Shown: in pieces, positions 1,022 to 29,702 of the stretch
How the letters are laid out: each line of letters opens with the position of its first letter
Position numbering within the stretch: position 1 is the first letter of the stretch
Source: Planctomycetota bacterium
GTDB taxonomy: Bacteria > Planctomycetota > Phycisphaerae > UBA1845
DNA: 64,000 nt
Direction of reading: 5' to 3'
NCBI GenBank assembly: GCA_030616775.1
Contig: JAUWWQ010000014.1
Location: forward strand, 1-64,000
Program-made: the position numbers and the translations under genes
Notes under the pieces: generated by a model
Told to the model about the DNA's origin: nothing
What the model saw: the letters and a program-made list of their open reading frames with translations, nothing else
Database searches by the model: none

Positions 1022-1108
1022 CGTCTTGTGGCCAAACGGTAAATGACTGTTGAGTGTGGATATCGCCGCCAGCGCGGCGTTGATCAAGAACCTTAAGGAG
1101 AATCTGTG

Positions 1109-3889
1109 ATGAGAGAGCATAGCTCAGAGTGGAAGCGTCTGCGGTCAGCTACTGCGGCGATGGTGGCAGTTGTCTTCATGGGACTTGTGGTGGGTTGCCC
1201 GGTGACACCGCCACCACCGACCAGCTGTACGGCGGACGCAGACTGCGACGACGGCAACGCATGCACGATGGATGCGTGTAACCCAGCCGGCGTCTGCGTC
1301 AACGATCCGATTGCGTGTGGGAGCCCCGGACCGGCCGGCCCACCCGGCGAGGACGGCTTGGGTGTAAAAACCACCGACCGCCATGGTACCGACATGCTAC
1401 TATCGACCGGGGAGTTCGAGGAGGCAGGCAAGTTCTTCGCTACTGCCACGATCACTTCAGCGACGGCAGGTACCGACGGCACCGTTGCCGTAGATTTTAC
1501 GGTGGAGGATGACGAAGGAAACCCGGTCGTCGGAGTTACCGGCGTCGACTTCACCATCGTCGCCCTCGCCCCGGCGAGTGGGGATGAAAGTTTCAACAAG
1601 TGGGTTCCGTACATCTTTCGCACCGAGACGGTGGAAGATTCCGCCGACGGCGATTGGCCCAATCCAGATGGGACTACTGCTTTCCAGGCGTACCGGGAAA
1701 GCGGCGGAACGTTCACCGACAACGTTGACGGATCCTATTCGTATGTGTTCGAGACCAATCTGGCCGATGCCACGATGGATGGGACGCCCATTCCTTACGA
1801 TCGAAGCCTGACCCATCGCGTGTCGGTTATGATTGGGGGACACAGTGGTCCCACGGCCGATGCGAATTACGACTTCGTCCCCGACGGCTCCGCCGTTACG
1901 GAGACTCGGAACATCGTGGAAACGGCCACGTGCAAGAACTGCCATGGCGTCGAGTTCGCCGGACACGGCGGTGACCGACTCACCGGCGGTGACCGACTCA
2001 CCGTAGAAAACTGCGTAACCTGCCACCTGCCGGGCAGCCTGGACGCTCAGAGCAGTGAAACTGTGGACATGGCCCCCATGATCCACAAGATCCACGCCGG
2101 CGGCGAGCTGGCCTCTATTCCTGGCCCCGACGGTATCGTGTGGGACGATCCCGCCACGCCGGAGGACGAGTTCGCCGACAACGGCGACTACACCATCTGG
2201 GGTCACAACAATGGCGAGCATACCTGGTGGAAGGTTACCTTCCCGGCGGTCCTCTCGAACTGTATGAGTTGCCACCAGGGGTCGGGCGAGGACGTGGATA
2301 ACTGGAAGAACGTGCCTTCGCGAGACGCATGCGGCTCTTGTCACGACGACGTGGACTTCGCGACCGGGACCAACCACGAAGGCGGCGCGGCGACCAGCGA
2401 TGCCACCTGTACGGCCTGCCACCCCGCTTCCGGAGAAGGGGCTATCGGTCATTCGGTCACCGAGGCGCACGACTGGACCACCAAGGACGCCCGGAACATC
2501 GCGGAGTTTGATGTCAACCTCACGGTTTCCACGCCGGCGAACGGCGAGTACTTCGTGGCGGGAGAAAGCCCGGTCATCTCCATCGCCCTCACCAACGTCG
2601 AAACCGGTGCACTGATCGACCACACCACCGTCGTGCGAGACGACGCCGCCGAGGGGTGCCCGGAAGGCGGACCCTGCCCGGCAGCGGACGGTAAGTTCAG
2701 AAACGCCAACCTGTTCGTTCAGGGACCTCGGGCCAAGCGCAATCCAGTGCTATCCACGCTGGCGCGCGTGGAGATTCTAAGCGACACGACCGGCCCGTGG
2801 GACATTAGCGCCGCAGACGCCACCCTGGACCTCGTGCTCGACGGCGGCAAGGACCTGTTCGTCCTGGATGCCGGTTCAGACCCCGAGGTCATTCCCGCCA
2901 CCATCAGCGTGGACGTGGCGGACGGAACCTTCGCCGACACGTCGGCAGCAACGGCCGCGGAAATCGTGGCCTGGCTAAATGCCGACAACTCGCCCGAGCC
3001 GTATGAAGGCGAATGGGATGCCGTATTCGCGGCCCGCGCCATCGCGTACCTCGACGGAGGCAAGGTGGCCATCCGCAGCAGGAACCTCGGCGATTTCTTC
3101 TCGCTCCAGTTGGAGACCAGCGCCGTGGCGACCGCGGTGTTCGCCGGCAATACGGACGTGCAAGTGATCGGCGGTTCTACTCCTAGGATCAGGGTCTGGC
3201 AAGATTACGACCCCGCCGACAACGATCCGAAAGCCGCCTGGACGACTGGCGCAATCACCTACACCCTGGATCCGGTTGACGACCTGGCGCCCGGCACCTA
3301 CGTAGCCAGCGTCGAGTTCGCTGACCGCGCTCGGGTGAGCATGAGCGACTACCAGACCCCTTCCGTCGGCTGGGGGACATTCCAGGTGGGCACGGCGACG
3401 GAGGAACCGTTGGTGGCCGACAGGTGCGACAAATGCCATCAGGGGCCTGATGGCCGAGGGTATGTGCTCGACTTCCCGCGCCACAACAAGCCATTCCCCA
3501 ATGACGCCGTGGATGGGTGCGCCGCCTGCCACGACTACCAGAACCGCAATGCAACCGGTGAATGGAGCGGCGGCCAACCGATTTCCAGGCGGACCCACGC
3601 CGTCCACAATGGTTCCAGCCTGAACTATCCTCTTACCACCGTTGCGCATGAGGAGAGCGTCGAGGGGAGAAACTGGGACATCACTTTCCCGCAGGATATT
3701 CGGCACTGTGAGGCCTGCCATTCCAGCGCCAGCAGTGGAACCTGGGCAACAAACGCTGCCCGAATCCCCTGCAGCGGATGTCATGACTCCGTTGAGGCCA
3801 CAGCCCACATGGACCTCATGACCTGGGACCCGACCCCGCTAGATCCGTTCAGTGGCGATGAGGACGAATCCTGCCAGGCTTGCCACTGA
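1109..3889 (+). CDS. OmcA/MtrC-like decaheme c-type cytochrome lipoprotein
   Basis: Probable outer-surface cytochrome that moves electrons between the periplasm and extracellular acceptors or donors. The product is 926 residues. A hydrophobic stretch ends in LVVGC, a lipobox. It is followed by a cysteine-rich acidic segment (DADCDDGNACTMDACN), a short collagen-like GSPGPAGPPGEDG stretch, and beta-rich sequence. Exactly ten CXXCH motifs follow, the first at residue 275 and the last forming the final five residues of the protein. Hemes cluster in two groups (about 275-445 and 775-926) separated by a beta-domain, as in OmcA/MtrC. The ATG at 1109 is chosen over the GTG at 1106 because AAGGAG (1095-1100) is 8 nt from it. 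A terminator follows, then a foldase gene. The heme count and lipobox are seen; the respiratory role is inferred. Confidence 0.85.
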   Translation: MREHSSEWKRLRSATAAMVAVVFMGLVVGCPVTPPPPTSCTADADCDDGNACTMDACNPAGVCVNDPIACGSPGPAGPPGEDGLGVKTTDRHGTDMLLSTGEFEEAGKFFATATITSATAGTDGTVAVDFTVEDDEGNPVVGVTGVDFTIVALAPASGDESFNKWVPYIFRTETVEDSADGDWPNPDGTTAFQAYRESGGTFTDNVDGSYSYVFETNLADATMDGTPIPYDRSLTHRVSVMIGGHSGPTADANYDFVPDGSAVTETRNIVETATCKNCHGVEFAGHGGDRLTGGDRLTVENCVTCHLPGSLDAQSSETVDMAPMIHKIHAGGELASIPGPDGIVWDDPATPEDEFADNGDYTIWGHNNGEHTWWKVTFPAVLSNCMSCHQGSGEDVDNWKNVPSRDACGSCHDDVDFATGTNHEGGAATSDATCTACHPASGEGAIGHSVTEAHDWTTKDARNIAEFDVNLTVSTPANGEYFVAGESPVISIALTNVETGALIDHTTVVRDDAAEGCPEGGPCPAADGKFRNANLFVQGPRAKRNPVLSTLARVEILSDTTGPWDISAADATLDLVLDGGKDLFVLDAGSDPEVIPATISVDVADGTFADTSAATAAEIVAWLNADNSPEPYEGEWDAVFAARAIAYLDGGKVAIRSRNLGDFFSLQLETSAVATAVFAGNTDVQVIGGSTPRIRVWQDYDPADNDPKAAWTTGAITYTLDPVDDLAPGTYVASVEFADRARVSMSDYQTPSVGWGTFQVGTATEEPLVADRCDKCHQGPDGRGYVLDFPRHNKPFPNDAVDGCAACHDYQNRNATGEWSGGQPISRRTHAVHNGSSLNYPLTTVAHEESVEGRNWDITFPQDIRHCEACHSSASSGTWATNAARIPCSGCHDSVEATAHMDLMTWDPTPLDPFSGDEDESCQACH
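1967..2002 (+). repeat. 18-bp perfect tandem duplication inside the decaheme gene
   Basis: GGCGGTGACCGACTCACC occurs twice in direct succession (1967-1984, 1985-2002) and encodes GGDRLT repeated. It lies between the first and second heme motifs. It keeps the frame, so it changes only loop length between hemes and looks recent. Confidence 0.8.
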
Positions 3890-3994: not shown

Positions 3995-4912
3995 ATGTTC
4001 AAAACCGCTTCCACACTGCTACCACTGCTCGCCACGGTGGCTTTCGGACTCACCCTCGCGTGCGGTCAGAGTCAATCAACCTCGACCACGAACCAAGCCA
4101 CGGATACGCCGGCCCAACCGCCCAAGTCGGCTAAGGACGTCCTCGCTACGGTCAACGGCACTCCGATCGGCGAAGCGGACGTTCGCTTCGCGTTGAGCAG
4201 CGGTGGCCATAATAAGGAGGTTCCCCCGGGGCACAGAAAGAACGTTCTCGAGGTCATCATTCGGCGGGAGCTCATTTACCAAAGAGCGGTCGGGCTCGGC
4301 CTGGATGCCAATGCCAGTTATCAGGAAAAGCTGCGCCGAATGGAGGCACAGATCAATGCCTTCAAGAGAAAAGAGCTTTCAGAACTGTTCTGGCGGGAAA
4401 TCGCCGGAACGGCAGTAATCAGCGAAGCAGAGGCAAAAAAGTACTTCGTGGAAAACGCCGCACGGATCGGAACCGAAGTCCACGTGTGGCAGATCCTACG
4501 GAGAAAGGAAGGCTTGATCGAGCAAGTCCTGAACGATCTCCAGCGTGAAACACCTTTCGAGGAGGTAGCCAGGAAACTATTCCCGAACTTGCCGAAAACG
4601 GCTGGGGAGCCCTGGGATCTGGGGTACTTGAGATGGAAACAGGTGCCGAAGCCATGGCGGAACGTCGTCTATGATCTAAAGAAGGGTCAAATGAGCGGCG
4701 TCATTCGGGGCCCGAATAATCGCTTCTGGATCATCAAGCTGATCGACAGGCGCCAGAACCCGGACATCACCTTCGAAAGCGTCAAGCCAACAGTCATGGA
4801 GATCTTGAAGAACGCAAAGATCGAGGAGCTTCGAGAGAAAACCGAGCGAGATCTTCGGGCCAAGGCAAGCATCGTGTATGCGACGGTTCCGGTTGGAGCG
4901 TCCGAGGAGTGA
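3995..4912 (+). CDS. SurA/PrsA-like peptidyl-prolyl isomerase lipoprotein
   Basis: Exported foldase candidate of 305 residues. A signal peptide ends in LTLAC with the lipid-anchored cysteine at residue 23, followed by a Ser/Thr/Gln-rich linker. From about residue 45, VLATVNGTPIGEADV and the helices after it match the SurA-N/trigger-factor-like chaperone module. Residues about 155-255 match the parvulin-type rotamase region in layout (VHVWQILRRKEG, later FWIIKLIDRR), and a helical tail follows. A weak AAGG-type Shine-Dalgarno precedes ATG 3995. Parvulin-like foldases are often encoded next to multiheme cytochromes, so the neighbour upstream is a plausible client. Isomerase activity cannot be read from the sequence because the rotamase region is divergent. 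Confidence 0.75.
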   Translation: MFKTASTLLPLLATVAFGLTLACGQSQSTSTTNQATDTPAQPPKSAKDVLATVNGTPIGEADVRFALSSGGHNKEVPPGHRKNVLEVIIRRELIYQRAVGLGLDANASYQEKLRRMEAQINAFKRKELSELFWREIAGTAVISEAEAKKYFVENAARIGTEVHVWQILRRKEGLIEQVLNDLQRETPFEEVARKLFPNLPKTAGEPWDLGYLRWKQVPKPWRNVVYDLKKGQMSGVIRGPNNRFWIIKLIDRRQNPDITFESVKPTVMEILKNAKIEELREKTERDLRAKASIVYATVPVGASEE

Positions 4913-5813: not shown

Positions 5814-8582
5814 ATGTTGAACAACCCCGTATCCTTATCGGCCGCACAGAATGAAAGACGCCGAGTATGGCCCCGTGTCGCGCTCGCCGCCATGATGTTA
5901 ATGCCATTCGCCGGGTGCGCAAGCAAACCGAGTACCGCCTGGTCAACGGACAGCCAACACAAACGGACACCCAGAACAAACAGACCGAGTACCGGCTGGT
6001 CAACGGACAGCCAATACAAACGGACACCCGGAACAAACAGTCAGTACCGGCAAACCTTCAAACAGATTCCCTCGGTTGACCAGACCAGGACGTACGGTCA
6101 AACCGCTAGCGCGCAGGAGTATTTCACGGAGAAGGCAAAGAAGAACAAACTGCCGGAGAAGTACCTGAGTGAAGCACGTGTTGGGATGACTGAAGTTGAC
6201 ACGAAGCTCGCCGAAGCACGCGCAACCGAGATCGAACGCGACGCAACTGTCCGACAAGAGAGCGCCTGGATTAAGAACAAGCGCGCCAACGCTGCGGCCC
6301 AGGAAGAAACCGAACTGGCCGAACTCGACAGGCTCAAGAAAGAACAGGAGGCCATGCAGGCGGAGCTTGTGGCCCAGCTCACGGCGCACGAACGTCAAGC
6401 GAAAGCGACCGTCGCCAAGAACGCTCGAATGGCTGAGGCGCTGGCCAAGGAGCAGCGTACGGTTCAGCAGGATTTGATTAGCCAGGCCGAAAAGGACTTC
6501 AACGAATCGAGAGCCCAAATCGAAGAACTCCGTGTGATTCGCCTGGCGACGGAAAAGGAGGGTGCGGCTGCAATAGAACAGGCGCGGATGAACGCCCACG
6601 CAACCCGCACTCGGGCAGCGGCGACCGTAGATGCATTGCGCCAGGAGGCCCAAACCGCCACTAATAAGACCACGGCGCGGGTGGCGGAGCTTTGCACCAA
6701 ACTCGCCACGATCCCGAAGCAGTTTCAGGCCAAGACCACTCAGCTCAAGACGAAAGCTACTTCTATTGAAGACCAAGCGCGTGCCAAAGCCGCCGAGTTG
6801 CAGGCCCGTGCCGCGGCCATGGAAAAGCAGTCCGCCGAGCATAAGTACAACCTGATGGTTTCCGTCGCCAAGACGGAGCGTCAGCAGGCCCAGATTGAGG
6901 CGGAACGCAAGAGTGTTGAGTCGAGGACCGCTTACGAGCGGGCGGCTATCGGGGTCGAGCAGTTGCGTGGCGACGCGCATCTGACGATCCAGAGCGCCCA
7001 ATCTGAATCGACCAGGCAGTTCGGAGAGCTGAACGCGTGGTTCAAACGCTCAAAAGCCGACATTGACAGGTTGCGTTCCGCCGCCGATCGATTCGAGAAG
7101 TTTGCCCGTGCCGAGTTTGTCAAAGCGCTGGCCAGACACGCCGCCGACGCGGTCCGGGAGACGAATGAGCATCAAGAGGTCCTCTCCGAAGCCCAAATGA
7201 AAACGACGATCGCCGAGGTGGAAGCCAAAGCCGCAATGGTGCATGAGCACCTTATGAACGAGTTGGAGCGCCAAACACAGGCAGGGAAGGTTGATCTTCC
7301 AGGGAAAACCACGGCGACCAATGAGTCCATGGACTTGGACGTAGTTTCGTCCCCCAAAGTCACCGCCGTGGCCAAAAGTATCGAACCCGACACCATTGCA
7401 GCATTCCGGTCCGCTCTGGCGAAGGTGGTGCACGACCGCATCTCGGCCGGCGCACAGTTCAGTTCTCTGGAAGCAAGCTACAACGAACAAAAGACCAACA
7501 TCGATTCGGTGAGAGACCAGCGAATCGCCCTCGGCAACGAACAGCTCGCCACGGCCGACGCCGTACATTTGCATGCTGTCGCCGGACTGGCTGAGTCCAA
7601 CGCCAACATCACCGCGGAGCTCGCAGCCGCCAGGTCGGGGCACGACCGCTCGATGGTGGAGGCCGAGACGTTCCGAAGAAGAACTCTCGCAGATGTCGCC
7701 GAGCTGCGGGCGCTGGCGAAGAGTGCTCTCGACGATGCTGCCGCCCGCACCCAGGCGCTTCGCAAAGAAGCCCGGGCGACCATGGAAAACGGGCAGAGTG
7801 AAGTCGATGCGATCCAGGCTTCCTTGCGCTCCACCGAAGAGCAGGGGGAAGCCGTGGCAAGTCGCCTGCTGGCCGAAGCCCACAGTGTCGAACAAAGCGA
7901 GGCTGCCCTGGCCGAGCAGATCGACGCGCAGATCAACGCAGCCGATCAGGAGCTTTTCGCGGAACTGGCCAACCTCGATCGCCAGATCGAGAGTAGCACC
8001 GCCATAGCCGAGACCAATTACAAGGAGATGCTGGCTCAGGCGGAGGCTATTGGGTTGCAGGCCGAGATGGATATCAAACGCCTGGCAGCGCGCAACGACC
8101 TCGAGAAGGCGATCGCCCAGAGCGAGATAGAGAGGCTTCACGATCTGCACTTTGTGAACTCCATGAGAGGAGAGGCGGAAGTCGAGCGTCGCCTGGCCAC
8201 AGCGCTGGCCAGGCGTACCAACTCCGACGCCGCCAGCGATGCCGAGCAGGTCGCCATCGGGGCGTACGCCGACATTGCGACCGCGGCCGTAGAGGCCCAA
8301 CGACGCATAGCCGCGGCGCGTGCCACCATGGTCAAGTCGCTGTTTAACACACGCCTGGTTGAAGTGGACGCTGAGCGAGTCAAGCGGAAGGCGGAAGCCC
8401 TTGTAACCGGGTCCCGTGAGCGGGCGAATGCCGAGACCATCCTGTCCAAGGCCAAGGCCTCTCGTGAAAAGACCAAGGAGCGAATGGCCCGATTGGTCAG
8501 CCATCAGGAGAGCCTGCAGCGGGCTGCGGTCAAGGATTGGGATTCTCGCCTGTCCAAGAATCCTCCTGTTGAGCCGAAGTGA
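5814..8582 (+). CDS. Giant coiled-coil lipoprotein, paralogue A
   Basis: Unrecognised family. The product is 922 residues. A long cationic N-terminus leads to a hydrophobic segment ending in PFAGC, with a predicted lipid-anchored cysteine at residue 35. A Thr/Ser/Gln-rich stretch with a 19-residue tandem repeat comes next, and then from about residue 100 to the end almost uninterrupted Ala/Glu/Gln/Arg/Lys heptad-like sequence. No enzyme motif is visible. Just before the coiled coil, the block YFTEKAKKNKLPEKYLSEAR, followed by a G-M-T-E-V-D stretch, recurs nearly unchanged in the second copy at 10222 and may be a functional contact site. GGAG (5802-5805) lies 8 nt before the ATG, and a hairpin follows the stop. 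A structural, surface or periplasm-spanning rod is the simplest reading, but this is inference. Confidence 0.8.
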   Translation: MLNNPVSLSAAQNERRRVWPRVALAAMMLMPFAGCASKPSTAWSTDSQHKRTPRTNRPSTGWSTDSQYKRTPGTNSQYRQTFKQIPSVDQTRTYGQTASAQEYFTEKAKKNKLPEKYLSEARVGMTEVDTKLAEARATEIERDATVRQESAWIKNKRANAAAQEETELAELDRLKKEQEAMQAELVAQLTAHERQAKATVAKNARMAEALAKEQRTVQQDLISQAEKDFNESRAQIEELRVIRLATEKEGAAAIEQARMNAHATRTRAAATVDALRQEAQTATNKTTARVAELCTKLATIPKQFQAKTTQLKTKATSIEDQARAKAAELQARAAAMEKQSAEHKYNLMVSVAKTERQQAQIEAERKSVESRTAYERAAIGVEQLRGDAHLTIQSAQSESTRQFGELNAWFKRSKADIDRLRSAADRFEKFARAEFVKALARHAADAVRETNEHQEVLSEAQMKTTIAEVEAKAAMVHEHLMNELERQTQAGKVDLPGKTTATNESMDLDVVSSPKVTAVAKSIEPDTIAAFRSALAKVVHDRISAGAQFSSLEASYNEQKTNIDSVRDQRIALGNEQLATADAVHLHAVAGLAESNANITAELAAARSGHDRSMVEAETFRRRTLADVAELRALAKSALDDAAARTQALRKEARATMENGQSEVDAIQASLRSTEEQGEAVASRLLAEAHSVEQSEAALAEQIDAQINAADQELFAELANLDRQIESSTAIAETNYKEMLAQAEAIGLQAEMDIKRLAARNDLEKAIAQSEIERLHDLHFVNSMRGEAEVERRLATALARRTNSDAASDAEQVAIGAYADIATAAVEAQRRIAAARATMVKSLFNTRLVEVDAERVKRKAEALVTGSRERANAETILSKAKASREKTKERMARLVSHQESLQRAAVKDWDSRLSKNPPVEPK
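5927..6040 (+). repeat. 57-bp in-frame tandem repeat, two copies
   Basis: Copies at 5927-5983 and 5984-6040 begin ACCGAGTACCG and differ at only a few positions. They encode two near-identical 19-residue units rich in Ser, Thr, Asn and Arg, just after the lipobox of the coiled-coil lipoprotein, and would lengthen its flexible tether. A third, diverged start of the unit may follow. Confidence 0.75.
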
Positions 8583-8592
8583 TCGACCGGTC

Positions 8593-8625
8593 AAAGGGGC
8601 CCGCCGGTTCCCGGCGGGCCACTTT
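8593..8625 (+). terminator. Hairpin after coiled-coil paralogue A
   Basis: GGCCCGCCGG (8598-8607) pairs with CCGGCGGGCC (8611-8620) around a TTC loop, and AAA/TTT extends the stem after one mismatch. It sits 11 nt after the stop codon. There is no long T run, so it may act as a weak terminator or stabilise the 3' end of the message. Confidence 0.6.
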
Positions 8626-8798
8626 GGTCCTTAACTCAGTTCGCGGGTCCTCCAGGCCGGCCGTTCCCAAGAGCACCGATCAGCCGAGTTCCACGCACCA
8701 GGGGCCTGCCCCAGACGACGGGTTTGCTTTGGCCCGGGAACTCGTGACTTGCACAAACTGCGCAAGACAGCGCTGAAAAAACCGAAGGGCAGCAGGCG

Positions 8799-9608
8799 TT
8801 AGAGGCCTTCCTTGTCTCTGTAAAGCGCCGTAATGATCTCCTGCACACAAGCCCGGCAGTCCGCCAACTCGCTCTCGCTGTTGACCCGTTCCTTGCAGGC
8901 CTGCCCGGCAGCGTGAAGCACCTCTCCCTCCGAAAAATGCGACCTTAGCTTCTTGTAATCCCAAATGAGTTGGTGGATGTAGTTCTCAGGCTTGCCCCAA
9001 CGTTTGCACGCCTCGAGCGGGCCTGCGTACTTGAAGTCGAAAGGGATAGCCTTTCCGGAGGGATCTTTCTGATTGACCGCCAGGTAGTCGTTGCAGAAGC
9101 GGTCCGCAAAATCTTGCACGGTTTGTCGGACCATGGAGAGCTTGTCTCCCAGGACGTAACCGGAGGTGCTGACAGACCAGGTGGAGGCGCGAAGAAGTTG
9201 AGTGGGATTTCGTTGAGGGAATACGTTCTGGATAAGCGCCAGGCGGATACTGAATGCGCAGAAGCCTTCCTTGGCCCTGATATGGCTGACATCCAGGTAC
9301 AAGTACGGGTCCCCGGGGCGCTCACGTCCTTGCTTCTCCGTAAGAACGGGAATCCCCGCCGCACGGAGGCGAAGTTCCACATCCGTCCGCAACTGGCTGG
9401 CTGACAAACCGGCCTTCTGGGCGTCCAGCTCCAAAGGATCCATCAGAAGATACACGGCGACCAGACCCTTCAGACTGTTACGTCGCGATTCCTGCACAGA
9501 CGGAGCGCCATCGGCGCCATCCTTGCCGCCATCCTTGCTGCCGCCAGCCATGACCAGCAGCATGATCGACACAGACGCAACCACACGCATCCATTTCGTC
9601 GTAGGCAT
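8799..9608 (-). CDS. Secreted protein of unknown function between the coiled-coil paralogues
   Basis: A 269-residue product starting at MPTTKW. A more upstream in-frame start exists, but the sequence before 9608 shows an AAAGGG-type ribosome-binding site, and the internal methionine leads straight into a signal-peptide-like helix (VVASVSIMLLVMAGGS). The position where a lipobox cysteine would be expected holds glycine, so it is probably not lipidated. The mature region carries six cysteines, including pairs near the C-terminus, and a predicted alpha/beta part (LRTDVELRLRAAGIPV, then YLYLDVSHI). I do not recognise the family. It is transcribed against its two neighbours, so its link to the coiled-coil proteins rests on position only. 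Confidence 0.65.
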   Translation of the reverse strand: MPTTKWMRVVASVSIMLLVMAGGSKDGGKDGADGAPSVQESRRNSLKGLVAVYLLMDPLELDAQKAGLSASQLRTDVELRLRAAGIPVLTEKQGRERPGDPYLYLDVSHIRAKEGFCAFSIRLALIQNVFPQRNPTQLLRASTWSVSTSGYVLGDKLSMVRQTVQDFADRFCNDYLAVNQKDPSGKAIPFDFKYAGPLEACKRWGKPENYIHQLIWDYKKLRSHFSEGEVLHAAGQACKERVNSESELADCRACVQEIITALYRDKEGL

Positions 9609-10221
9609 CTTCGACACCCTTTTTAGGACCAAAGAAAGCTGACTATCCGGCGGGAGAATACCAGCTTCAAGCCCGCGTGCCAAGTAGGCCGCCTGTCGCC
9701 CTCCCTACGTACGGGGTGAGTCCGGAAACGCCTGACGCTGGTCGGGAACGCCCTGCCCGGCTCCGGGCGATGGTGCCGCGGCGGCCGGGTCGCCCCGCCC
9801 GGCTGCGGCATCACGCCTCTGACGAGGCCCGGCAGGCTGGGACACACGTTCCTCGACTCCCGGAGCTGCGACGAGAGGGCGGAGTGCCATGGGCGGCTCC
9901 CCCGCAGGGCCAAGAATCGGATTCCGTGTGAGCCGTGTGTCGGAATATTGCCGGTCAGTTGCCGGACCGAGAATGTCTCTCTCGCTTCTCGCTCTTCGCC
10001 TTACGGCGGCGAAAAGATACTCGGAACCGCATCAGCAACAGCATATTTGGACGGAGAAGTGCATCAGGAAGTCCAACTGAAAAACAATACATCGAGAGCA
10101 CGCATGGACAGAATCCGTATCGTAATCTGTGTCAGGAAGGGCAAGGAGCCGCGTGTCTGGTAACCCTTGTGGCTGTCAGACTGGTTCCGTACTGCAGAAA
10201 TTGAAAAGGAGATAGACAAAC
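9609..10221. other. 610-base intergenic stretch, very GC-rich in its first half
   Basis: No gene is supported here. 9690-9900 is strongly GC-rich with many short self-complementary stretches, and all open frames in it have shadow-like Pro/Arg/Ala composition. From about 9950 base composition drops. The last 20 bases hold the AAAAGGAG ribosome-binding site (10204-10211) of the next gene. I tested the GC-rich part by eye for RNase P, tmRNA and riboswitch signatures and found none. Confidence 0.4.
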
Positions 10222-13056
10222 ATGTCCAACTGTTGTCAGAGAATGCCGGCCCCGCGGCAGCCCCTGGGGCCGGACGGATACCGAAGTGAAAAGTGTCGAG
10301 GAGCGCCTCGAACTGCGCTCGTCGCCATGAGCTTGACACTCCTCATCGGGTGTGCCAACAATCCGATTTCTCGATGGATCTCGAGTGGACAAGGTGAGCG
10401 CCACAGTGAAAGCGGCTCGATCGAGCAGAGCGATACGTACGATCAGAGCAACACCTATGATTCCGGCTACACGTCCGGCAAGAGCTACACCAACGCTCAA
10501 CCGTACACCCGTGACCAAGACAGCGGGTACGATCAGACAAGCGCGGTCGACCTGAGCAGGACATACGGTCAGACTGACAGCGTGCGCGACTACTTCACGG
10601 ACAAGGCGGGTAGGAACGACTTGCCGCAGAAGTACCTCAGCGAGGCCCGCATCGGGATGACCGAGGTTGACGTGACACTGGGCGGGGCTCGGGCCACGGA
10701 GCTTGAGCGCGACGCGACCTATCGGCGTCGCAGCGCCCAACTGTGGAACAGACGCACCGAGGCTGCGGCACGCGAAGAGACCTCACTGGCACAAATCCAG
10801 GAGCTTAGGCGCCAGCAGGAAGCCAAGCGGATGGAACTTACGGCCGAGCTGTCGTCGCGTGAGCGCCAGATTGAGACCACCGCCGAAAGGAACAAGCGGT
10901 TCGCCGAGGCGTGGGCCAGAGAGCAGCGCACGATACAGCACGAGGTGATGAGTCAGGCGGAGCGGGAGCTCAACGAGGCCAAGGCGCACATCGAGCAGCT
11001 CCGTGTCATTCGTGCCGCCACGGAAGGAGAGGCCCTCGCTGTCATCACTCAGATGCGGAGCGGTTCCCGGGCGACGCGGGCACGGGCTGATGCCAACATC
11101 ACACAGTTGCGCCAGGAGGCGCGCTCTGTCTCTGACAAGACGGCGGCACGAGTGGGAGAGTTGACCAGCCAGCTCAGCACGATTCCCCTACGGTTCCATG
11201 CCGAAGCCAGCCGGTTGGAGGCTCAGGCCACCTCCATTCAAGATGAGAGCTTCGCCAAAGGCCATGAGCTGAAAGCTCGCGCCAATGCCACCGAAGCGCA
11301 ATCCGCAGAGCACGGGTACAACCTCATGGTCTCCGTCGCGAGGACGAATCGCCAGCAGGTCGAGGCTGAGGCCGAACTCAGGAACACCGTAGCGGAGGCT
11401 GCCTACGAACGTGCGATCATAGAGGTCGACCGGATGCGCGCCGACGCCCATTTGACCCTCCAAAGTGCTCAGACACAAGCCACAAGGCAGTTTGAAGAGC
11501 TGGACGCCTGGTTCCAGCATTCGAAGACCCAGGTGGACTTGATGCGTTCGACCGCAGATCGAGATGAGAAGGTCGCCCGTGCTGAGTTCGTCAAAGTGCT
11601 GGCCAAGCATAGTGCCGACGCGGTGCGAGAGACGAATGAGCATCAGCAGGTTCTTTCCGAAGCCCAAATGAAAACCACAATTGCCGAGGTGGAATCGAAG
11701 GCCGCACAGGTCCATGAACAGATCATGAACGAGTTGGAGCACCAAACGCGGACCGGAAGCGTCGAGTTTCCAGGCAAGACCACACCTACCGATGAATCCA
11801 TGGACCTGGACGTGCCGGTGTCCGAAAAGGTCGCAGCCATCGTCCCGAACGTCGACCCAGAAGACATCGCCGCATTCCAATCCGCTCTGGCGAAGGTGCT
11901 GCACGACCGCACTTCGGCCGACGCACAGTACAGCTCCCTGGGAGCTTCCTACAACGAGCAAAAGACCAGCATAGAAGTTGAAAGAGATCAGAAAACCGCC
12001 GTCGGCAGCGAGCAGTTGAGCGTGGCCGACGCGCTGCATTTGGAAGCCGACGCCGCACTGGCCGAAGAGAAAGCCGGTATCACGGCGGAGCTGGAAGCTG
12101 GCAGGTCGGCATACGACTACGCCATGGTGGAAGCCGAGGCGTTCCGGGGGAACTCCCTCGCGGAGGTAGCCGAGCTGCGGGCGCAGGCCAAAGCCACTCT
12201 CGAGGATGGCACCGCCCGTGTCCGGGCGCTTCGTAAAGGAGCCCAAATGGTCATGGACAACGGGCAGGAAGAGGTCGATGCTATCCAGGCAAAGTTGCGT
12301 TCTACGGAAGAGCAAGGGAAAGCAGAGGCCGATCGTTTGCTCGTCGAAGCGGACAGCATCGAAAAGAGCGAAACTGCGTTGGCCGAGCAGATCGATGCGC
12401 AGCTTGCCGCAGCCGAGAAAGAGCTTGCCGCAGATCTGTCCAACCTTGATCGCCAGATCGAGAGTGGTACCACCATAGCCGGGACCAATTACAACGAAAT
12501 GCTGGCACAGGCCGAGAGTCTTGGATTCCAGGCTGAGATGGAGATCAAGCGTCTGGCTGGGCGCAACGATCTCGAGAAAGCGCTTGCCCAAGCTCAGATC
12601 GAGCGGTTCCATGACATAAACTTCATAGACGCGATCAAGGGTGACGCGGACGTGGAGCGTCGCCTGGCCACAGCGCTGGCCGACCGCTCCAGTTCGGACG
12701 CGGTCGCCGATGCCGAGCAGGTCGCGATCCAGGCGCAGGCCGACACGTTCAGCGCGGCAGCGGAAGCCCAGCGTCGCATCGCCACCATACGGGCCAACTC
12801 GGTCAAGTCGTTGTTCAATACCCGTGTCGTAGAAGTCGTCACGGACCGTGTCAAGGAGAAGGCGGACGCCCTCGTGAAAGAGTCTCGCCAGCGAGCCAAC
12901 GCCGAGACCCTCCTAGCGGAGGGCGAGGCTGCCCGCGACAAGACGAAAGAGCGGATGGCCCGGTTGGTCAAACACCAGGTATCGCTACAGCGGGCCGCCG
13001 TCAAGGATTGGGATTCTCGCCTGGCGAAGAATCCTGTGGACGGGTTCAACCCGTAG
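10222..13056 (+). CDS. Giant coiled-coil lipoprotein, paralogue B
   Basis: A 944-residue paralogue of the protein at 5814, colinear with it over the whole coiled-coil part and similar at well over half of positions by eye. A cationic N-terminus leads to LTLLIGC with the lipid-anchored cysteine near residue 44. A Tyr/Ser/Asp/Gln-rich low-complexity stretch (repeats of the Y-D-Q-S-N-T-Y-D type) replaces the 19-residue repeat of copy A. The conserved RTYGQT and YLSEARIGMTEVD blocks follow, and then coiled coil to the C-terminus. Only the tether region differs in kind, so the pair may form rods of matching length with different anchors or partners. AAAAGGAG lies 10 nt before the ATG, and a perfect hairpin follows the stop. 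The family is not recognised. Confidence 0.8.
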   Translation: MSNCCQRMPAPRQPLGPDGYRSEKCRGAPRTALVAMSLTLLIGCANNPISRWISSGQGERHSESGSIEQSDTYDQSNTYDSGYTSGKSYTNAQPYTRDQDSGYDQTSAVDLSRTYGQTDSVRDYFTDKAGRNDLPQKYLSEARIGMTEVDVTLGGARATELERDATYRRRSAQLWNRRTEAAAREETSLAQIQELRRQQEAKRMELTAELSSRERQIETTAERNKRFAEAWAREQRTIQHEVMSQAERELNEAKAHIEQLRVIRAATEGEALAVITQMRSGSRATRARADANITQLRQEARSVSDKTAARVGELTSQLSTIPLRFHAEASRLEAQATSIQDESFAKGHELKARANATEAQSAEHGYNLMVSVARTNRQQVEAEAELRNTVAEAAYERAIIEVDRMRADAHLTLQSAQTQATRQFEELDAWFQHSKTQVDLMRSTADRDEKVARAEFVKVLAKHSADAVRETNEHQQVLSEAQMKTTIAEVESKAAQVHEQIMNELEHQTRTGSVEFPGKTTPTDESMDLDVPVSEKVAAIVPNVDPEDIAAFQSALAKVLHDRTSADAQYSSLGASYNEQKTSIEVERDQKTAVGSEQLSVADALHLEADAALAEEKAGITAELEAGRSAYDYAMVEAEAFRGNSLAEVAELRAQAKATLEDGTARVRALRKGAQMVMDNGQEEVDAIQAKLRSTEEQGKAEADRLLVEADSIEKSETALAEQIDAQLAAAEKELAADLSNLDRQIESGTTIAGTNYNEMLAQAESLGFQAEMEIKRLAGRNDLEKALAQAQIERFHDINFIDAIKGDADVERRLATALADRSSSDAVADAEQVAIQAQADTFSAAAEAQRRIATIRANSVKSLFNTRVVEVVTDRVKEKADALVKESRQRANAETLLAEGEAARDKTKERMARLVKHQVSLQRAAVKDWDSRLAKNPVDGFNP

Positions 13057-23057: not shown

Positions 23058-25136
23058 ATGGCGCAAATGAGACTCCTTCAAGTACGGTGGAGATGGTCAG
23101 AGACGCGACCAGCGCTGGCGGGGCGTTCGCCTGTGCCGGTTTTTGTCATGGCTGTCCTGCTGACTTGGCCGTGCATCGTATGGTCGAGCGGCGTCCCTAC
23201 AACTCGCATCGAATCACCCATCGTATTCGTGCAGATCCCGGCCGGGTCGGATATCGAGAAGCTACCCGGGCGCGCACAAGGAATGCTGCGTGCCAACTAT
23301 GGCGAAGGCGGTCGCGTTGTCCGCCTCGATCCCGATGGTAAGCTGCAAGTGCTGACTGAGGGATTCAGCAGCGCATGCGAGCTGGATGTTTCCTTTGATG
23401 CGAAGTGTATTCTGTTCGCAGCCAAGCGGGAAGCGCAGGACCGGTGGAACATCTGGGAGATGAACGCCGACGGATCAGACGCAAGGCAGATCACCAAGGA
23501 CCTGGGAAACTGTCGTAGTCCTGCCTATCAGTCCACGCTGTATACCATCGTTTCCACTGAGCCGTGGTATCAGATCATGTTCGTCAGCGATGCAGCCGGG
23601 GTTATGAACGAGTATGGCGCCGGGCTCGCAACGAGCCTCTATAGCTGCAGACTCGACGGCAGTGAGGTGCGCCGGTTGACGATGAACCTGAGCGACGACA
23701 TGGACCCGTTCCTGATGGAGGACGGTCGTGTGCTGCTGGCCGGTTGGCAGCGCATGGACCTTGGGCGCGGTCCTCTAGGACGGGTGGCGCTGTTCGGCGT
23801 GAACACGGATGGCACGGATTACGCGTTATTCTGCGGTGATCAAGGGCGGCGTATCAAGCACATGCCCAGCGCTACAACTGATCGGTTGGTGGTGTTCATT
23901 GAAGCCGACGAAGTGGGGTGGGATGGTGCAGGGCAGCTTGCTTCGGTGAAGCTGCGACGTAACTTCTACTCGCATCGACAGGTGACCCATGGTGAGCCCG
24001 GGTTGTACCATTCACCATCGCCGCTGAGTGATGGTACTGTGCTGGTATCGTTCCGACAGGCGATCGCGACGGACACTCACGGCATCTACCGGCTCGATCC
24101 GCGTGGCGGACGAAAGGAACTGGTCTTCGACGATCCGAAATTCCACGACATGCATGCCAAGGTGCTGGCTCCCCGGCCCCGGCCGGACGGACGGTCCAGC
24201 GTGGTCAATGAGAAGTATTCGACTGGGAAATTCTATTGCCTCAATGCCTACCAGACAGACCCGGCTCTGACGCCACAAATGAGGCCGCGAATGATCAAGC
24301 GCCTGCGCGTCATAGAAGGTGTGCCGGAGCCCGCCGGTATGGATGTCGCTCACCCATCCGACGCTTCGTTGGCGGGTACCCGCATGAACGTCGGCGGTTC
24401 GGAGAGTCACTTTGCCGGGATTGCCATGAAACGATTGTTGGGCGTGGTTCCGGTCGAGGAGGATGGATCATTCCACATCGAAGTACCGGCCGACACGCCC
24501 ATTCAGCTTCAAACCCTCGATGCCAATGGGATGGCGCTTGGCACCTGCGGCTGGATATGGGTAAAGCATCGTGAGCGGCGCGGATGCATCGGCTGTCACG
24601 AGGATCCCGAGCTAACGCCGGAGAACAGATTCGTTGACGCATTGAAACGCCCAGGCAACAAGCTGACCCTGCCCGCAAAGAAGAGACGGACAGTCGATTT
24701 CCGTCGCGACGTCATGCCGATCATCGTCAAGAAATGCACGGCATGCCACTCGTGCCAGAGCGCCGGGCCGGTCCTACGTGCTGAACCGACCGGGCAGTCC
24801 AACCTTGCGTACCACAGCCTGACTGCCCCCATCTCGAGTTCGCTTGTGAGCGCTGAACGTGTCAAGGGGCATTATGTGCATCCCGGGCAGGCCCGAACCA
24901 GCTCGCTAATTTGGCGCATCTTTGGCCGCAACACCTCTCGCCCGTGGGATGAAAGCTACCGTCCCGAAGAACTATTTCCTGTGTGTCCACCACGGGGGGC
25001 CGGACAACTGACTGAGGACGAAAAACTGACCTTCATCGAGTGGATCGATCTGGGCGCACATTGGGATGGTATCCCCGGAGCGGATGAATCCACCGTAGAC
25101 ACGGCTGGGCATATTGAGAGTGAAGGTGTGAAATGA
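23058..25136 (+). CDS. HzsA-like diheme protein with a TolB-type propeller
   Basis: First gene of the cytochrome cluster, 692 residues. A hydrophobic export segment lies near residues 28-45 (VMAVLLTWPCIVWS). Residues about 50-370 form PD40/TolB-like propeller blades (WNIWEMNADGSDARQIT, CRLDGSEVRRLT). The C-terminal half has c-heme motifs CIGCH at residue 510 and CTACH at 560, with VDFRRDVMPIIVKKC before the second. This blade-plus-two-heme layout is that of the alpha subunit of hydrazine synthase and of the widespread HzsA-related proteins of Planctomycetota. No beta or gamma subunit is present, so hydrazine synthesis is not implied. The start lacks a strong ribosome-binding site. The stop overlaps the next start (ATGA). 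Redox function is inferred. Confidence 0.75.
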   Translation: MAQMRLLQVRWRWSETRPALAGRSPVPVFVMAVLLTWPCIVWSSGVPTTRIESPIVFVQIPAGSDIEKLPGRAQGMLRANYGEGGRVVRLDPDGKLQVLTEGFSSACELDVSFDAKCILFAAKREAQDRWNIWEMNADGSDARQITKDLGNCRSPAYQSTLYTIVSTEPWYQIMFVSDAAGVMNEYGAGLATSLYSCRLDGSEVRRLTMNLSDDMDPFLMEDGRVLLAGWQRMDLGRGPLGRVALFGVNTDGTDYALFCGDQGRRIKHMPSATTDRLVVFIEADEVGWDGAGQLASVKLRRNFYSHRQVTHGEPGLYHSPSPLSDGTVLVSFRQAIATDTHGIYRLDPRGGRKELVFDDPKFHDMHAKVLAPRPRPDGRSSVVNEKYSTGKFYCLNAYQTDPALTPQMRPRMIKRLRVIEGVPEPAGMDVAHPSDASLAGTRMNVGGSESHFAGIAMKRLLGVVPVEEDGSFHIEVPADTPIQLQTLDANGMALGTCGWIWVKHRERRGCIGCHEDPELTPENRFVDALKRPGNKLTLPAKKRRTVDFRRDVMPIIVKKCTACHSCQSAGPVLRAEPTGQSNLAYHSLTAPISSSLVSAERVKGHYVHPGQARTSSLIWRIFGRNTSRPWDESYRPEELFPVCPPRGAGQLTEDEKLTFIEWIDLGAHWDGIPGADESTVDTAGHIESEGVK

Positions 25137-26758
25137 CACACGCACCTGTAGCCATAAGCGTCTTTCTCCTGGCTGTGGGACCGGCAAGAGGAAAGGAGCC
25201 AACCTTGCCCGTCTTTGAGGACGTAACCGAGCAGGCCGGCATTCGCTTTAAGCACAGTTACGGCGATCACAATCTCAGTAACATTGTCGAAGGGACCGGC
25301 CCGGGTTGCGTGTTCTTCGATTACGACGGCGACGGGCATCTCGACATCTATTTCTTGAATGGGTGTTGGCTGCGCGAGGTCAATGATAATTTCGGACGGG
25401 ACTTAAGAGGCAAGCTATCCAACGCACTATACCGCAATAACGGCGACGGCACTTTCAGCGATGTAACCCACAATACCAGGGTGGGTGATCAGGGGTATGG
25501 AATGGGGGCTTCGGCAGCCGACTATGATAACGACGGAGACCTGGATCTATATGTGTTGAATTATGGTCCCAACGTGCTCTACCGTAACAATGGGGATGGT
25601 ACTTTCACGGATGTCTCCTCCAAATCAGGACTGGAGGATACCTATTGGAGCCTGTCGGCCCCGTGGTTGGACTATGACAGAGATGGGGATCTGGATGTCT
25701 ATGTCGCCAATTATCTGGAATACGATGCGGGGAAGTTCCGTGACTTCTATGCGGCAGCCGGGTATCCCGGTCCGCTAAGCTATAAGGCCCAACCCGACCG
25801 ACTTTATCGCAACAACGGCGACGGTACATTCACTGATGTGACCAAAGAGACCGGACTGCACTTCCCCGACGGCCGGGCGATGAGCGCAATCGCCACGGAC
25901 CTCAACAACGACGGGAATATGGACCTCTACGTGGCCAACGATGCCACACCCAATTGCTACTTTGTGAACAACGGCAAGGGGACCTTTACGAATCAGGCCC
26001 TGGAATGGAGCCTGGCTTTTGGAGAAGGCGGACAGGGTGCTTCCTCGATGGGTCCGGTTGTCGGCGATGTGGATCGCAACGGCCTGCTGGATGTATACAT
26101 TCCGGATATGGGGTACGGGTGCCTGTTGATCAACAAGGGCAAATGGTTTGTAGACGTGACTGCACCGAGCAATCTGGCTGTGGCATGTGGCCAGTATACC
26201 GGATGGGGCGGCGGACTGATTGATTACGACAACGACGGCTACCTTGATGTGTTCGTGGCCAACGGCAACGCCCATCACGAGTACACCGAGGAGGACGTCC
26301 TGTTGCGCAACGACGGGAACGGAAAGTTTATTGACGTAGCCAAACAGTCCGGGCCGTACTTCAAAGAAAAGTACGTCGGCCGGGGGGCTGCTTTCGCCGA
26401 CTATGACAACGACGGTGATATGGACATGCTGGTCATGAACCTTAATGGGCCGGCCAAGTTGCTCCGCAACAATGGTGGGAACAAGAACCATTGGCTGACG
26501 GTTGTCCCCAAGCTGGCCCGCACCAAGGTCGAGGCGATTGGTGCCCGCGTCACGGTCATGGTCGGCGGGATGCGGATGGTGCAGGAACTGGTCGCGGTGA
26601 CGGGCTATCTTTCACAAAGCGACCCCCGAGGTCATTTCGGCTTGGGCAAGGCGACCAAAGCCGATAGTGTCGAGATTCGCTGGCCGAACGGCAGCGTTAC
26701 CAGCTTGAAGAACGTCAAGGCCGACCGGATTCTCACGGTCGTTCAGGATGACGGATAA
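25133..26758 (+). CDS. Exported ASPIC/UnbV protein with FG-GAP/VCBS repeats (CRTAC1-like)
   Basis: A 541-residue secreted beta-propeller protein. A short signal peptide ends near GPARGKEP. It is followed by at least six FG-GAP/VCBS blades with calcium-binding loops of the D-Y-D-x-D-G-D-x-D-L-D-x-Y type and the recurring LYRNNGDGTFTDV strand. The C-terminal segment with HWLTVVPKL, GARVTVMVGG and VEIRWPNGSVTSL is the ASPIC/UnbV module. Such proteins are abundant in Planctomycetota and Acidobacteriota, and their molecular function is not established. It overlaps the upstream stop by 4 bases and its own end lies 13 bases before the next start, so the three cytochrome-related genes form one coupled transcript. 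Confidence 0.85.
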   Translation: MTHAPVAISVFLLAVGPARGKEPTLPVFEDVTEQAGIRFKHSYGDHNLSNIVEGTGPGCVFFDYDGDGHLDIYFLNGCWLREVNDNFGRDLRGKLSNALYRNNGDGTFSDVTHNTRVGDQGYGMGASAADYDNDGDLDLYVLNYGPNVLYRNNGDGTFTDVSSKSGLEDTYWSLSAPWLDYDRDGDLDVYVANYLEYDAGKFRDFYAAAGYPGPLSYKAQPDRLYRNNGDGTFTDVTKETGLHFPDGRAMSAIATDLNNDGNMDLYVANDATPNCYFVNNGKGTFTNQALEWSLAFGEGGQGASSMGPVVGDVDRNGLLDVYIPDMGYGCLLINKGKWFVDVTAPSNLAVACGQYTGWGGGLIDYDNDGYLDVFVANGNAHHEYTEEDVLLRNDGNGKFIDVAKQSGPYFKEKYVGRGAAFADYDNDGDMDMLVMNLNGPAKLLRNNGGNKNHWLTVVPKLARTKVEAIGARVTVMVGGMRMVQELVAVTGYLSQSDPRGHFGLGKATKADSVEIRWPNGSVTSLKNVKADRILTVVQDDG

Positions 26759-26771
26759 GGAGAGCGACGCC

Positions 26772-29681
26772 ATGCCATGGCGTTTGTACATCGTGCTCCC
26801 GGCCGCTTGTGCATTGACGGATTCCGTCCTGGGTTCGGACCCGGGGGTTCCGGATAGACATCCGGTGTATGTCGGTGTCCGCGTATGTGCGGGATGTCAC
26901 GGGGCGAAGAACGGCAACCACATATTCAGCCGCTGGCGGGCGTCGAAGCATGCTCAGGCCTACGCCTGTCTATGGAGCCCTGAAGCCCGGGAGGTTGCCA
27001 AGCTGAGCGGGATTCGCCAGGAACCGCAAGATGCGGCAGCGTGCCTGGGGTGTCATGCGACGGCCTACGAGACCGAGCCCTGGGAAAAGGAGGACACCTT
27101 CTTCCTCGAGGACGGGATCCAATGCGAATCGTGTCATGGTCCCGGCAGCGAGTACATAAGTCCCAACGTCATGGGTGACCTGATGGATCGGGAGAAGGCC
27201 GTGCGCTTCGGACTGAAGACGCCGGGTGAGCGTCAGTGCATGATGTGTCACAACGTCAAGGGTTCACACGTTGCGGTCTTGCGATCACCGGAGATCGACA
27301 TCAGGAAAGAGTTGAAGTCGGTGTGTGGGGGGGGGCACGAACAGACTGGTATGCCCGCCAATCCACCAGCGGATCAGCACGGTTGGATACCTCAGCCGCC
27401 GAGCGGTGCGGTCAGTGACACTCAGTATAAGTACACTGGGGTCATGGCCTGTGCCCGGTGCCATAAAGGACCGAAGATGGGCTACCAGTTCAGCAAGTGG
27501 CGGTTAGGCAAACATGCCCGGGCTTACGCTGTACTGGGTACAAAAGCCGGTTATGAAATGGCTGCCGGCGCAGGTGTCAGCGGCAACCCGCAAGAGAATT
27601 CACGTTGCCTTGGCTGTCACACTACTGGTTTTACCGTCGACAAGGACGGAATATTAGAGGGATTTGACTTTGCTGACGGAGTCCAATGTGAGAGTTGCCA
27701 CGGCCTCGGCAGCGAGTATTCGCCTGAGGCCGTCATGAGGGACCGGCTGGCTGCCCGGCGAGCTGGGCTGCGGCCTGTCACTGAAGAAACCTGTATACCA
27801 TGCCACGAGAACGCCCACGGACGCACGTTTGATTATGAAACCTCCGTCAGAGCGATCGCCCACCCGACGCGACCACCGGACCAGGGCAAAGAAGCCCGGG
27901 CCCTCCGCTACAAGACCCCGCTCAATCTGGCACTGTCGCCGGACGGCAAGGAACTGTATGTGGCGTGTGAAGCCTCCGACACCGTTATCGTCGTGGATGT
28001 TGCGGAGCGCAAGGCAGTTACTGAAATCGTAACCGGGGGCCAACCCACGGACGTGACCTTCAGCCCCGATGGTTTGCGTGCTTATGTCACCAACCGATTG
28101 GATGACAGTCTGAGCGTCATTTCCACACGAGCACGGCGTGTTCTGCAGACAGTCGCTGTCGGTGATGAGCCGCACGGCGTGATTACCGATAGAGAAGGCA
28201 AGCTCATTTATGTTCTCAACACTCCGGCGGACAGCATCTCGGTGCTTGATGCAAAAACGTTGCAGGAAACCAAGCGGCTTGCAGCCAGCCGCAGCCCCTG
28301 GTCGTTGGCCATCAGCCCCGACGGTAAGCAGATCGCAGTGACCAATACACTGTCGCGGTTTGTTCCGTTCCGAACGCCGTCTGTGTCCGAGGTGACAATC
28401 ATTGACACCAATCGTGCCGTCGTCGAGAACCGGGTTGTCGTTCCCGGGGCCAATCTGATGCAGGGCATCGCCTGGCATCCAAGTGGTAAATTCGCCTTGA
28501 TTACCCTGAACCGTACGAAGAACCTGGTGCCCATGACGCGGCTGCTCCAGGGGTGGACGATCACCAACGGAATGGGCGTGATCTGGCGTGATGGGACAGT
28601 GGATCAGGTTCTGCTCGACGAGTCGCATCTGTGCTTCCCGGATCCGGCCGACGTAGCCATCAGCCCGGACGGGCGGTACGCCTTTGTGACCAGCAGCGGT
28701 TCGGATCACGTGGCAGTCGTTGATGTCGACAAGCTGGTCGCAATGCTGGAAAACGCTTCTCCCTACGAGCGTGAGCATGTATTCCCAAACCACCTGGGCA
28801 AGCCCACTGAGTTCATCATCAAGCACATTCCCACCAGAGACAGTCCAAGGGGAGTGCTGTTCTCACACGACGGCCGGACCGCCTTTGTGGCCAACGCCCT
28901 GGACGACTCGATTACCGTCATCGACGTCGCCAAACTTGATGCGGTGGCCCGGATTGACCTGGGCGGCCCGAAAGTCATCACCAAGGTCCGCCATGGCGAA
29001 CGGGTTTTCCATAGCGCCGACATCACGTTTCGCCGGCAGTTCTCCTGTCATTCGTGCCACCCAGACGGCCACATTGACGGTCTGACCTACGACATCGAAC
29101 CGGATGGGATCGGAATCAGCCCGGTGGACAACCGGACGCTCCGCGGGATTCTTGATACTGCACCGTTCAAGTGGGAGGGGACCAACCCCAGTCTGCAGCG
29201 CCAGTGCGGGCCACGGCTGGCGGTGTTCTTTACCCGCATTCAGCCGTTTACACCGCAGGAACTGTCCGCCCTGGACAATTACATCTGCACGATTCCCAGG
29301 CCGCCCAACCGCCATAGGCCGGTTGGCGGCGAGCTCACGCCGGCCCAGCGGCGCGGCAAGGCCGTGTTTGACAGAACGGTCACTAACAGCGGGAGCGTCA
29401 TCCCGCTCGAGAACCGCTGTGTGACCTGCCATTTTCCACCACTCTTCACGGATCGCTCGCGCCGCAACGTGGGTACGAAAATGTGGCTGGATCGCGAGTC
29501 CGACTTTGACGTGCCTCACCTGAACAACATCTATGACTCGGCACCGTACCTGCACAATGGTATCTCCGAAACGTTGGAGGAGATCTGGACACGTTTCAAC
29601 CCATATGATCAACACGGGGTCACCAACGACATGACCAAGGATCAGTTGAACGACCTGATCGAGTATCTCAAGACACTCTGA
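26772..29681 (+). CDS. Ten-heme cytochrome: duplicated c554-like domain, YVTN propeller and MauG-like C-terminus
   Basis: An exported redox protein of 969 residues. The ATG at 26772 is chosen over 26748 because AAGGAG lies 9 nt upstream and a signal peptide (MPWRLYIVLPAACALT) follows at once. Residues 39-360 are two tandem tetraheme units in the same order (CAGCH, CLGCH, CESCH, CMMCH; then CARCH, CLGCH, CESCH, CIPCH) resembling cytochrome c554-type domains. Residues about 375-740 are YVTN/40-residue propeller blades (LALSPDGKELYVACEASDT). The last third carries CHSCH and CVTCH with TAPFKWEGTNPSL and APYLHNGIS, the pattern of MauG/diheme peroxidase-like proteins. A CGGGH between the two tetraheme units sits on a run of nine G and looks like a lost or abortive heme site. 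Substrate unknown. Confidence 0.8.
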   Translation: MPWRLYIVLPAACALTDSVLGSDPGVPDRHPVYVGVRVCAGCHGAKNGNHIFSRWRASKHAQAYACLWSPEAREVAKLSGIRQEPQDAAACLGCHATAYETEPWEKEDTFFLEDGIQCESCHGPGSEYISPNVMGDLMDREKAVRFGLKTPGERQCMMCHNVKGSHVAVLRSPEIDIRKELKSVCGGGHEQTGMPANPPADQHGWIPQPPSGAVSDTQYKYTGVMACARCHKGPKMGYQFSKWRLGKHARAYAVLGTKAGYEMAAGAGVSGNPQENSRCLGCHTTGFTVDKDGILEGFDFADGVQCESCHGLGSEYSPEAVMRDRLAARRAGLRPVTEETCIPCHENAHGRTFDYETSVRAIAHPTRPPDQGKEARALRYKTPLNLALSPDGKELYVACEASDTVIVVDVAERKAVTEIVTGGQPTDVTFSPDGLRAYVTNRLDDSLSVISTRARRVLQTVAVGDEPHGVITDREGKLIYVLNTPADSISVLDAKTLQETKRLAASRSPWSLAISPDGKQIAVTNTLSRFVPFRTPSVSEVTIIDTNRAVVENRVVVPGANLMQGIAWHPSGKFALITLNRTKNLVPMTRLLQGWTITNGMGVIWRDGTVDQVLLDESHLCFPDPADVAISPDGRYAFVTSSGSDHVAVVDVDKLVAMLENASPYEREHVFPNHLGKPTEFIIKHIPTRDSPRGVLFSHDGRTAFVANALDDSITVIDVAKLDAVARIDLGGPKVITKVRHGERVFHSADITFRRQFSCHSCHPDGHIDGLTYDIEPDGIGISPVDNRTLRGILDTAPFKWEGTNPSLQRQCGPRLAVFFTRIQPFTPQELSALDNYICTIPRPPNRHRPVGGELTPAQRRGKAVFDRTVTNSGSVIPLENRCVTCHFPPLFTDRSRRNVGTKMWLDRESDFDVPHLNNIYDSAPYLHNGISETLEEIWTRFNPYDQHGVTNDMTKDQLNDLIEYLKTL

Positions 29682-29702
29682 TCCGCAAGAGGAGGCGGAG
29701 TA

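Follow-up and report, generated by a model that had tools for sequence, protein, structure and literature searches.

A family of lipid-anchored planctomycete proteins with a predicted antiparallel helical hairpin of conserved length

Two large tandem genes of a planctomycete, here called A and B, encode members of what, judging from sequence comparisons, is an unnamed protein family distributed over at least seven families of the class Phycisphaerae. These proteins carry a lipobox with an invariant cysteine and two long arms of nearly constant length built from 18-residue repeats, of which the second, by profile comparison, is an internal duplicate of the first. Covariation between the arms and natural deletions at their junction strongly support a model in which the arms pack as an antiparallel hairpin, with residue i facing a residue at about 966 − i; this hairpin is likely to measure about 49 nm, or about 55 nm together with its conserved tip. 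The best explanation that we can offer for the whole is a lipidated hairpin acting as a fixed-length spacer or stalk of the cell envelope, a proposal that we regard as evenly poised. The interpretation thereby extends beyond a single locus to a family at class level.

The locus

The window, i.e. the whole 64,000-nucleotide stretch of DNA analyzed here, belongs to a genome of 4.4 Mb in 108 contigs. The first-pass annotation, made from the letters of the window, had described two large tandem lipoproteins of 922 and 944 residues around an opposing gene for a secreted protein, and this is indeed how the open reading frames are arranged. The features are as follows:

5814..8582, +, gene A, N-terminally lipidated, predicted helical-hairpin protein of 922 aa (open reading frame; core 95% identical to an ortholog in genome G002)
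5916..5918, +, lipobox cysteine of A, Cys35 (LMPFAGC), aligned with Cys in 58 of 58 complete homologs
5919..6152, +, flexible tether of A, residues 36–113 (32–116 aa across the family)
5920–6051, +, 57-bp/19-aa tandem repeat inside the tether of A, 2.4 copies
6153..7271, +, arm 1 of A, residues 114–486, 373 aa, in 18-residue helical repeats
7272..7385, +, Pro-rich tip linker of A, residues 487–524 (in the family 38–75 aa, 11% Pro)
7386..8540, +, arm 2 of A, residues 525–909, 385 aa, proline-free, predicted antiparallel to arm 1 (i + j about 966)
8589..8631, +, terminator-like hairpin 3' of A, U tract weak
8799..9608, −, opposing gene for a 269-aa protein with a Sec-type N-terminus and without lipobox, linked to A and B only in the genus of the window
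10222..13056, +, gene B, paralog of A, 944 aa (open reading frame, alignment to A)
10351..10353, +, lipobox cysteine of B, Cys44 (TLLIGC) (this and the next four by family alignment)
10354..10623, +, tether of B, 90 aa, rich in Ser, Tyr and Gln
10624..11742, +, arm 1 of B, 373 aa
11743..11856, +, tip linker of B
11857..13011, +, arm 2 of B, 385 aa
13069..13103, +, terminator-like hairpin 3' of B, core the same as after A

The related hairpins that had been noted behind both genes share an almost identical core, GGCCCGCCGGTTCNCGGCGGGCC, at 8598 and 13075, of which the window holds no further copy; their strength corresponds to z = −4.1 after A and −5.4 after B. The proposed origin by duplication agrees with the relationship of the two proteins, which are paralogs with 61% identity end to end and an alignment that is gapless between the YLSEARxGMTEVD block and the WDSRL block at the C-terminus. 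They had also been thought to differ only in the tether. This segment downstream of the lipobox cysteine is where they diverge most, but differences occur throughout both proteins.

An OmcA/MtrC-like multiheme cytochrome lipoprotein (1106–3889) and a PpiC-type isomerase (3995–4912) precede A, a pair that is not kept beside homologs of A and B elsewhere. At 23058–30941, the window further contains a cluster in which a cytochrome c554/β-propeller protein (26748–29678) lies beside FG-GAP-repeat-like and other secreted proteins, close to periplasmic binding proteins.

The first-pass annotation had raised the possibility that related genomes share the arrangement of A and B around the opposing gene. 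This holds for the same-genus genome G002 (matched as CP070827.1, ‘Phycisphaerales bacterium isolate bin11’), whose unit encodes proteins 94–95% identical to those of the window, whereas all other carriers have one copy of the hairpin gene, with no middle gene in its neighborhood. The unit has different flanking genes in the two genomes: a YfbK-type VWA protein and GroEL in G002, PpiC/cytochrome and ThiG in the window. A and B have dN/dS values of 0.45–0.46 and the middle gene has one of 0.30; they are therefore real genes. The 57-bp repeat in the tether of A, with its 2.4 copies in the window, has 4.1 in G002 (L008 10652–10886), and from these sequences it appears that tether length changes via repeat number and that arm length is constant. 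About 7 kb upstream of the unit, G002 has an IS transposase (DDE group 1; L008 2531–3676) split over two reading frames.

The class contains distant relatives of the middle gene (26–36% identity), which are located either on other contigs or in genomes where the family has no match. For this reason, and because neighboring genes are not conserved beyond close relatives and the pair is confined to one genus, we rejected the three-gene architecture, or any conserved operon, as a functional unit, and regard the pairing around an opposing gene as a genus-level curiosity. One carrier genome, G620, has a middle-gene relative and a hairpin gene on separate contigs.

Distribution of the family

In whole-genome profile searches, homologs, mostly full length, were found in 34 of 397 sampled genomes of the class, belonging to seven families; within three of these families, the carriers number 40 of 163, 11 of 89 and 9 of 39 genomes. 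Profile searches of two samples of the phylum, 392 and 374 genomes, found no relative outside Phycisphaerae. These broad searches scored two candidates per genome, such that a copy may have been missed. Given the patchy presence of the family, its role cannot be essential for the class. The family tree closely tracks the taxonomic families, and the duplication that gave rise to A and B is limited to the genus of the window.

That the proteins belong to no named family had been suspected, and searches of Pfam, NCBIfam, PHROGs and PDB gave no significant match for A and B; likewise, no Pfam domain was matched among 13 family members, and we found no paper on the family. Two single weak coiled-coil matches, both at E = 0.007, to a Rz-spanin in PHROGs and to V-ATPase E in NCBIfam, were set aside, and a phage origin was rejected, there being no relatives in IMG/VR. 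The family copies in L138 and G793:C67 are each broken by one in-frame stop, which may reflect a pseudogene or an assembly error.

Domain anatomy and conservation

To describe the shared anatomy, we used an alignment of 59 non-redundant homologs, the arms of which are 20–94% identical to each other (median 31%). The lipobox cysteine is present in all 58 homologs with complete N-termini and is nearly always preceded by glycine. By this signature the proteins are lipoproteins with a type II signal peptide, and not soluble cytoplasmic proteins, an alternative that had been considered for the homologs.

Arm 1 has 373 residues in 57 of 58 homologs and arm 2 has 385 in all 59, whereas the tether (32–116 residues), the linker (38–75) and the C-terminal tail (9–107) vary. 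Prolines make up 22 of 21,702 residues in arm 1, none of 22,538 in arm 2 and 266 of 2,408 (11%) in the linker. These lengths and counts are direct sequence evidence and thus argue for two helices that run uninterrupted over a fixed length and are connected through a single Pro-rich linker, with the helicity itself being predicted. Conserved length with divergent sequence is a mark of molecular spacers (PMC5082667), and the family appears to bear it, although five divergent members are shorter at the tip.

Residues 414–474 and 525–545, at the predicted tip, are among the best-conserved parts. The C-terminus is variable among homologs and ends on lysine in A and few others only. Many members of the taxonomic families f9 and f16 carry a VPTD-like motif there, F-x-x-VPTD followed by acidic residues, for instance in L032, L033, L085, L086, L029, L030 and others; it is absent in A and B of the window. 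At the membrane end, this motif could serve for binding or sorting.

An 18-residue repeat and an internal duplication

The first-pass annotation had described A and B as colinear coiled coils. They are indeed gapless against each other through the helical part, predicted to be almost wholly helical and of fixed length, but their periodicity is of a different kind. The autocorrelation of apolar and alanine profiles is strong at lags 18 and 36 (z about 5–10), and alanine alone has a strong 9-residue repeat as well, the phase of which is coherent along each arm. Periodicity peaks occur at 3.6, 3.0, 9 and 18, with lag 18 strongest, and the autocorrelation of the arms has no heptad (3.5-residue apolar) peak, on which grounds we rejected a heptad coiled coil. 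Eighteen residues correspond to five helical turns at 3.6 residues per turn. Over most of both arms, the two-face helical harmonic power reaches 19–26 for alanine and 17–31 for polar residues, against a noise level of 1, with alanine on two opposite helix faces and large apolar residues mainly on one of these; the consensus unit of arm 2 is approximately AEVERLRAQADAxRQIAE.

When arm 1 was aligned to arm 2 with hhalign, 339 columns matched with one gap (E = 5e-20), alternative alignments were offset by near multiples of 18, and column-shuffled controls gave nothing. We infer that the arm grew from 18-mers and was duplicated afterwards.

Evidence for an antiparallel hairpin

Mutual information between the arms is maximal at i + j = 966 and 968 (z = 5.4 and 5.3; 6.7 at 968 with 20 letters), with companion peaks at 959, 963 and 970, as antiparallel helices would give. 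The signal is present in both clades and distributed along the arm, and its maximum was matched in none of 60 within-clade permutations. A phylogeny-controlled count of co-changes over 28 independent sequence pairs yields 6.1 for the same band, and no shifted band exceeds 2.8. The hairpin peak was not seen with charge-only or size-only alphabets, and neither parallel diagonals nor within-arm antidiagonals gave significant or comparable covariation.

The second line of evidence comes from five divergent relatives (L148–L152; 17–21% identical, from two genera of f9), which have lost only the predicted tip region. L149 and L151 lack 108 residues (6 × 18), which leaves positions 420 and 546, whose sum is 966, just 18 residues apart; L148, L150 and L152 lack 43 residues at the same place. 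In all five, the spacing of the paired positions below the tip is exact, and with their shorter tip, hairpin length is not absolutely fixed. A further line of evidence is that the only segment both rich in proline and variable in length is located at the predicted tip.

These observations bear on the extended rods of about 100 nm that had been envisaged for A and B. The arms might lie end to end as a rod of ~110 nm, with parallel oligomers forming long rods in the envelope, and two unbroken helices of about 758 residues together would suit such a structure. We nevertheless consider it highly improbable: the covariation is antiparallel along the arm, no parallel diagonal signal accompanies it and the tip deletions are symmetric. 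Antiparallel contacts between two separate extended molecules might produce similar covariation, yet they would not account for the tight tip deletion. Covariation, natural tip deletions and the paired breaks of the AlphaFold models described below favor a hairpin of ~49–55 nm instead.

Two AlphaFold runs break the arms at points that lie opposite each other in the hairpin register, 342/620 and 260/703. Such breaks could mean that each hairpin is folded in half, giving a compact four-helix bundle and a lipoprotein body of ~25 nm, as one run with breaks at 254–267 and 700–705 would have it (mean pLDDT 83.7, pTM 0.52). A weak second antiparallel signal within arm 2 (7386–8540), 3.8 near i + j = 1407, matches one of the breaks; it could arise from such a folded hairpin or from an antiparallel dimer of hairpins. 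A bundle seems distinctly unlikely, however, since the break points differ between runs, coincide with no proline, conserved turn or indel in the family and leave the phase of the repeat continuous. We took the mid-arm breaks, which moved between runs within indel-free, Pro-free helix, as an artefact. Of the earlier suggestion that the helical region might fold back, the folding back thus stands in the form of the antiparallel hairpin, and the compact bundle is retained only as a rival.

In the straight hairpin, residues 114–441 would pair with 525–852, i.e. over 328 residues, which at 0.15 nm each amount to about 49 nm, with overhangs of residues 442–486 at the tip (~6.7 nm) and 853–909 at the base. 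In its proximal part, coupling is, tentatively, centered on the large-apolar face and leaves the alanine face free. Fold searches returned TM-scores of at most 0.3 and no significant relative, and we claim no structural relative.

A possible role in the cell envelope

According to the mechanism that we propose, A and B would be paralogs, duplicated within their genus, of a class-wide planctomycete family whose members are exported and lipidated. A disordered tether would join the lipid anchor to two continuous α-helical arms of 373 and 385 residues, connected via the Pro-rich tip linker and packed into the stiff hairpin described above, with a 45-residue conserved tip projecting past the paired region and the C-terminus back at the membrane end. 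The hairpin would then hold this tip at a set distance from the anchoring membrane, facing another envelope layer. The likeliest anchoring membrane is the outer one, because lipoproteins without Asp at position +2 default there; A and B both lack it, which fits outer-membrane sorting by the rules of E. coli only. Since no neighboring gene is conserved and the data are sequences, the spacer role is read from the architecture alone.

The second, Ala-rich helix face would probably serve side-by-side association. Given two opposite apolar faces, one of them alanine-only, the hairpins might join into sheets, cylinders or filaments, which would coat the envelope or determine its shape. We find a scaffold or fibre of this kind rather unlikely; its oligomers are a prediction, and the alanine faces could serve a simple dimer.

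Alternatively, the lipoprotein may be flipped to the outer face, with the hairpin reaching ~50 nm outward and the tip acting as an adhesin or receptor, like PrgA of Enterococcus. The strong conservation of the tip would suit this function, the tether shows tandem-repeat variation of a kind that many surface proteins have, and both models list PrgA among their fold matches, with insignificant TM-scores. We are rather doubtful of a surface stalk, as no full-length homolog has an extra folded domain at the tip and neither a surface-export signal nor a partner gene was detected.

The planctomycete envelope is unusual and its periplasm is variable, and our literature searches turned up no protein that determines its spacing. 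It is conceivable, if on balance fairly improbable, that the hairpin is a class-specific envelope ruler that keeps the planctomycete outer membrane ~50 nm from a second surface, perhaps in the form of antiparallel hairpin dimers with lipid anchors at both ends. For the spacer or stalk that we favor more generally, the family offers a concrete, testable candidate with a defined length, register and tip. For coiled-coil biology and design, it is also of use as a clean natural case of an 18-residue helical repeat that is long, straight and two-faced.

Comparison with known systems

The arms of SMC and Rad50 form an intramolecular antiparallel helical hairpin of about 50 nm and conserved length (PMC5082667). 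On the strength of covariation and tip deletions, the A/B family appears to share this architecture, including a specialized tip, with its geometry deduced from sequence; SMC arms are also the best fold matches of our models, at TM-scores of 0.2 or lower. In contrast to SMC and Rad50, it has no ATPase head or hinge/hook (no Pfam domain), is exported and lipid-anchored, and follows an 18-residue instead of a heptad pattern. The cytoplasmic hairpin of MCPs is likewise Ala-rich and helical, and its length changes are paired deletions, comparable to the tip of L149 and L151. Unlike MCPs, the A/B proteins have no MCPsignal/MCP Pfam domain or transmembrane segment, are exported lipoproteins and are about twice as long.

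Giantin-type spacer coiled coils combine, as here, divergent sequence with conserved length, but they are heptad-based, eukaryotic Golgi proteins and not exported lipoproteins. PrgA of enterococci, a cell-surface protein, likewise has a long antiparallel stalk (6z9l, not significant as a fold match), yet it is wall-anchored in a monoderm, bears an adhesin domain and has no sequence match to A or B. Lpp and the outer-membrane tethers SlpA and OmpM are helical, length-defining proteins of the envelope as well; Lpp is also lipid-anchored, and its lengthening widens the periplasm (PMC8824477). The A/B proteins differ from these in being much longer, in their predicted hairpin and in that no conserved C-terminal lysine or barrel domain was found, nor did 13 family members match a peptidoglycan-binding or SLH domain in Pfam. 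The family thus belongs to none of these systems; in geometry, its nearest analogs are the arms of SMC/Rad50 or the hairpin of MCPs, and in probable purpose they are Lpp or SlpA.
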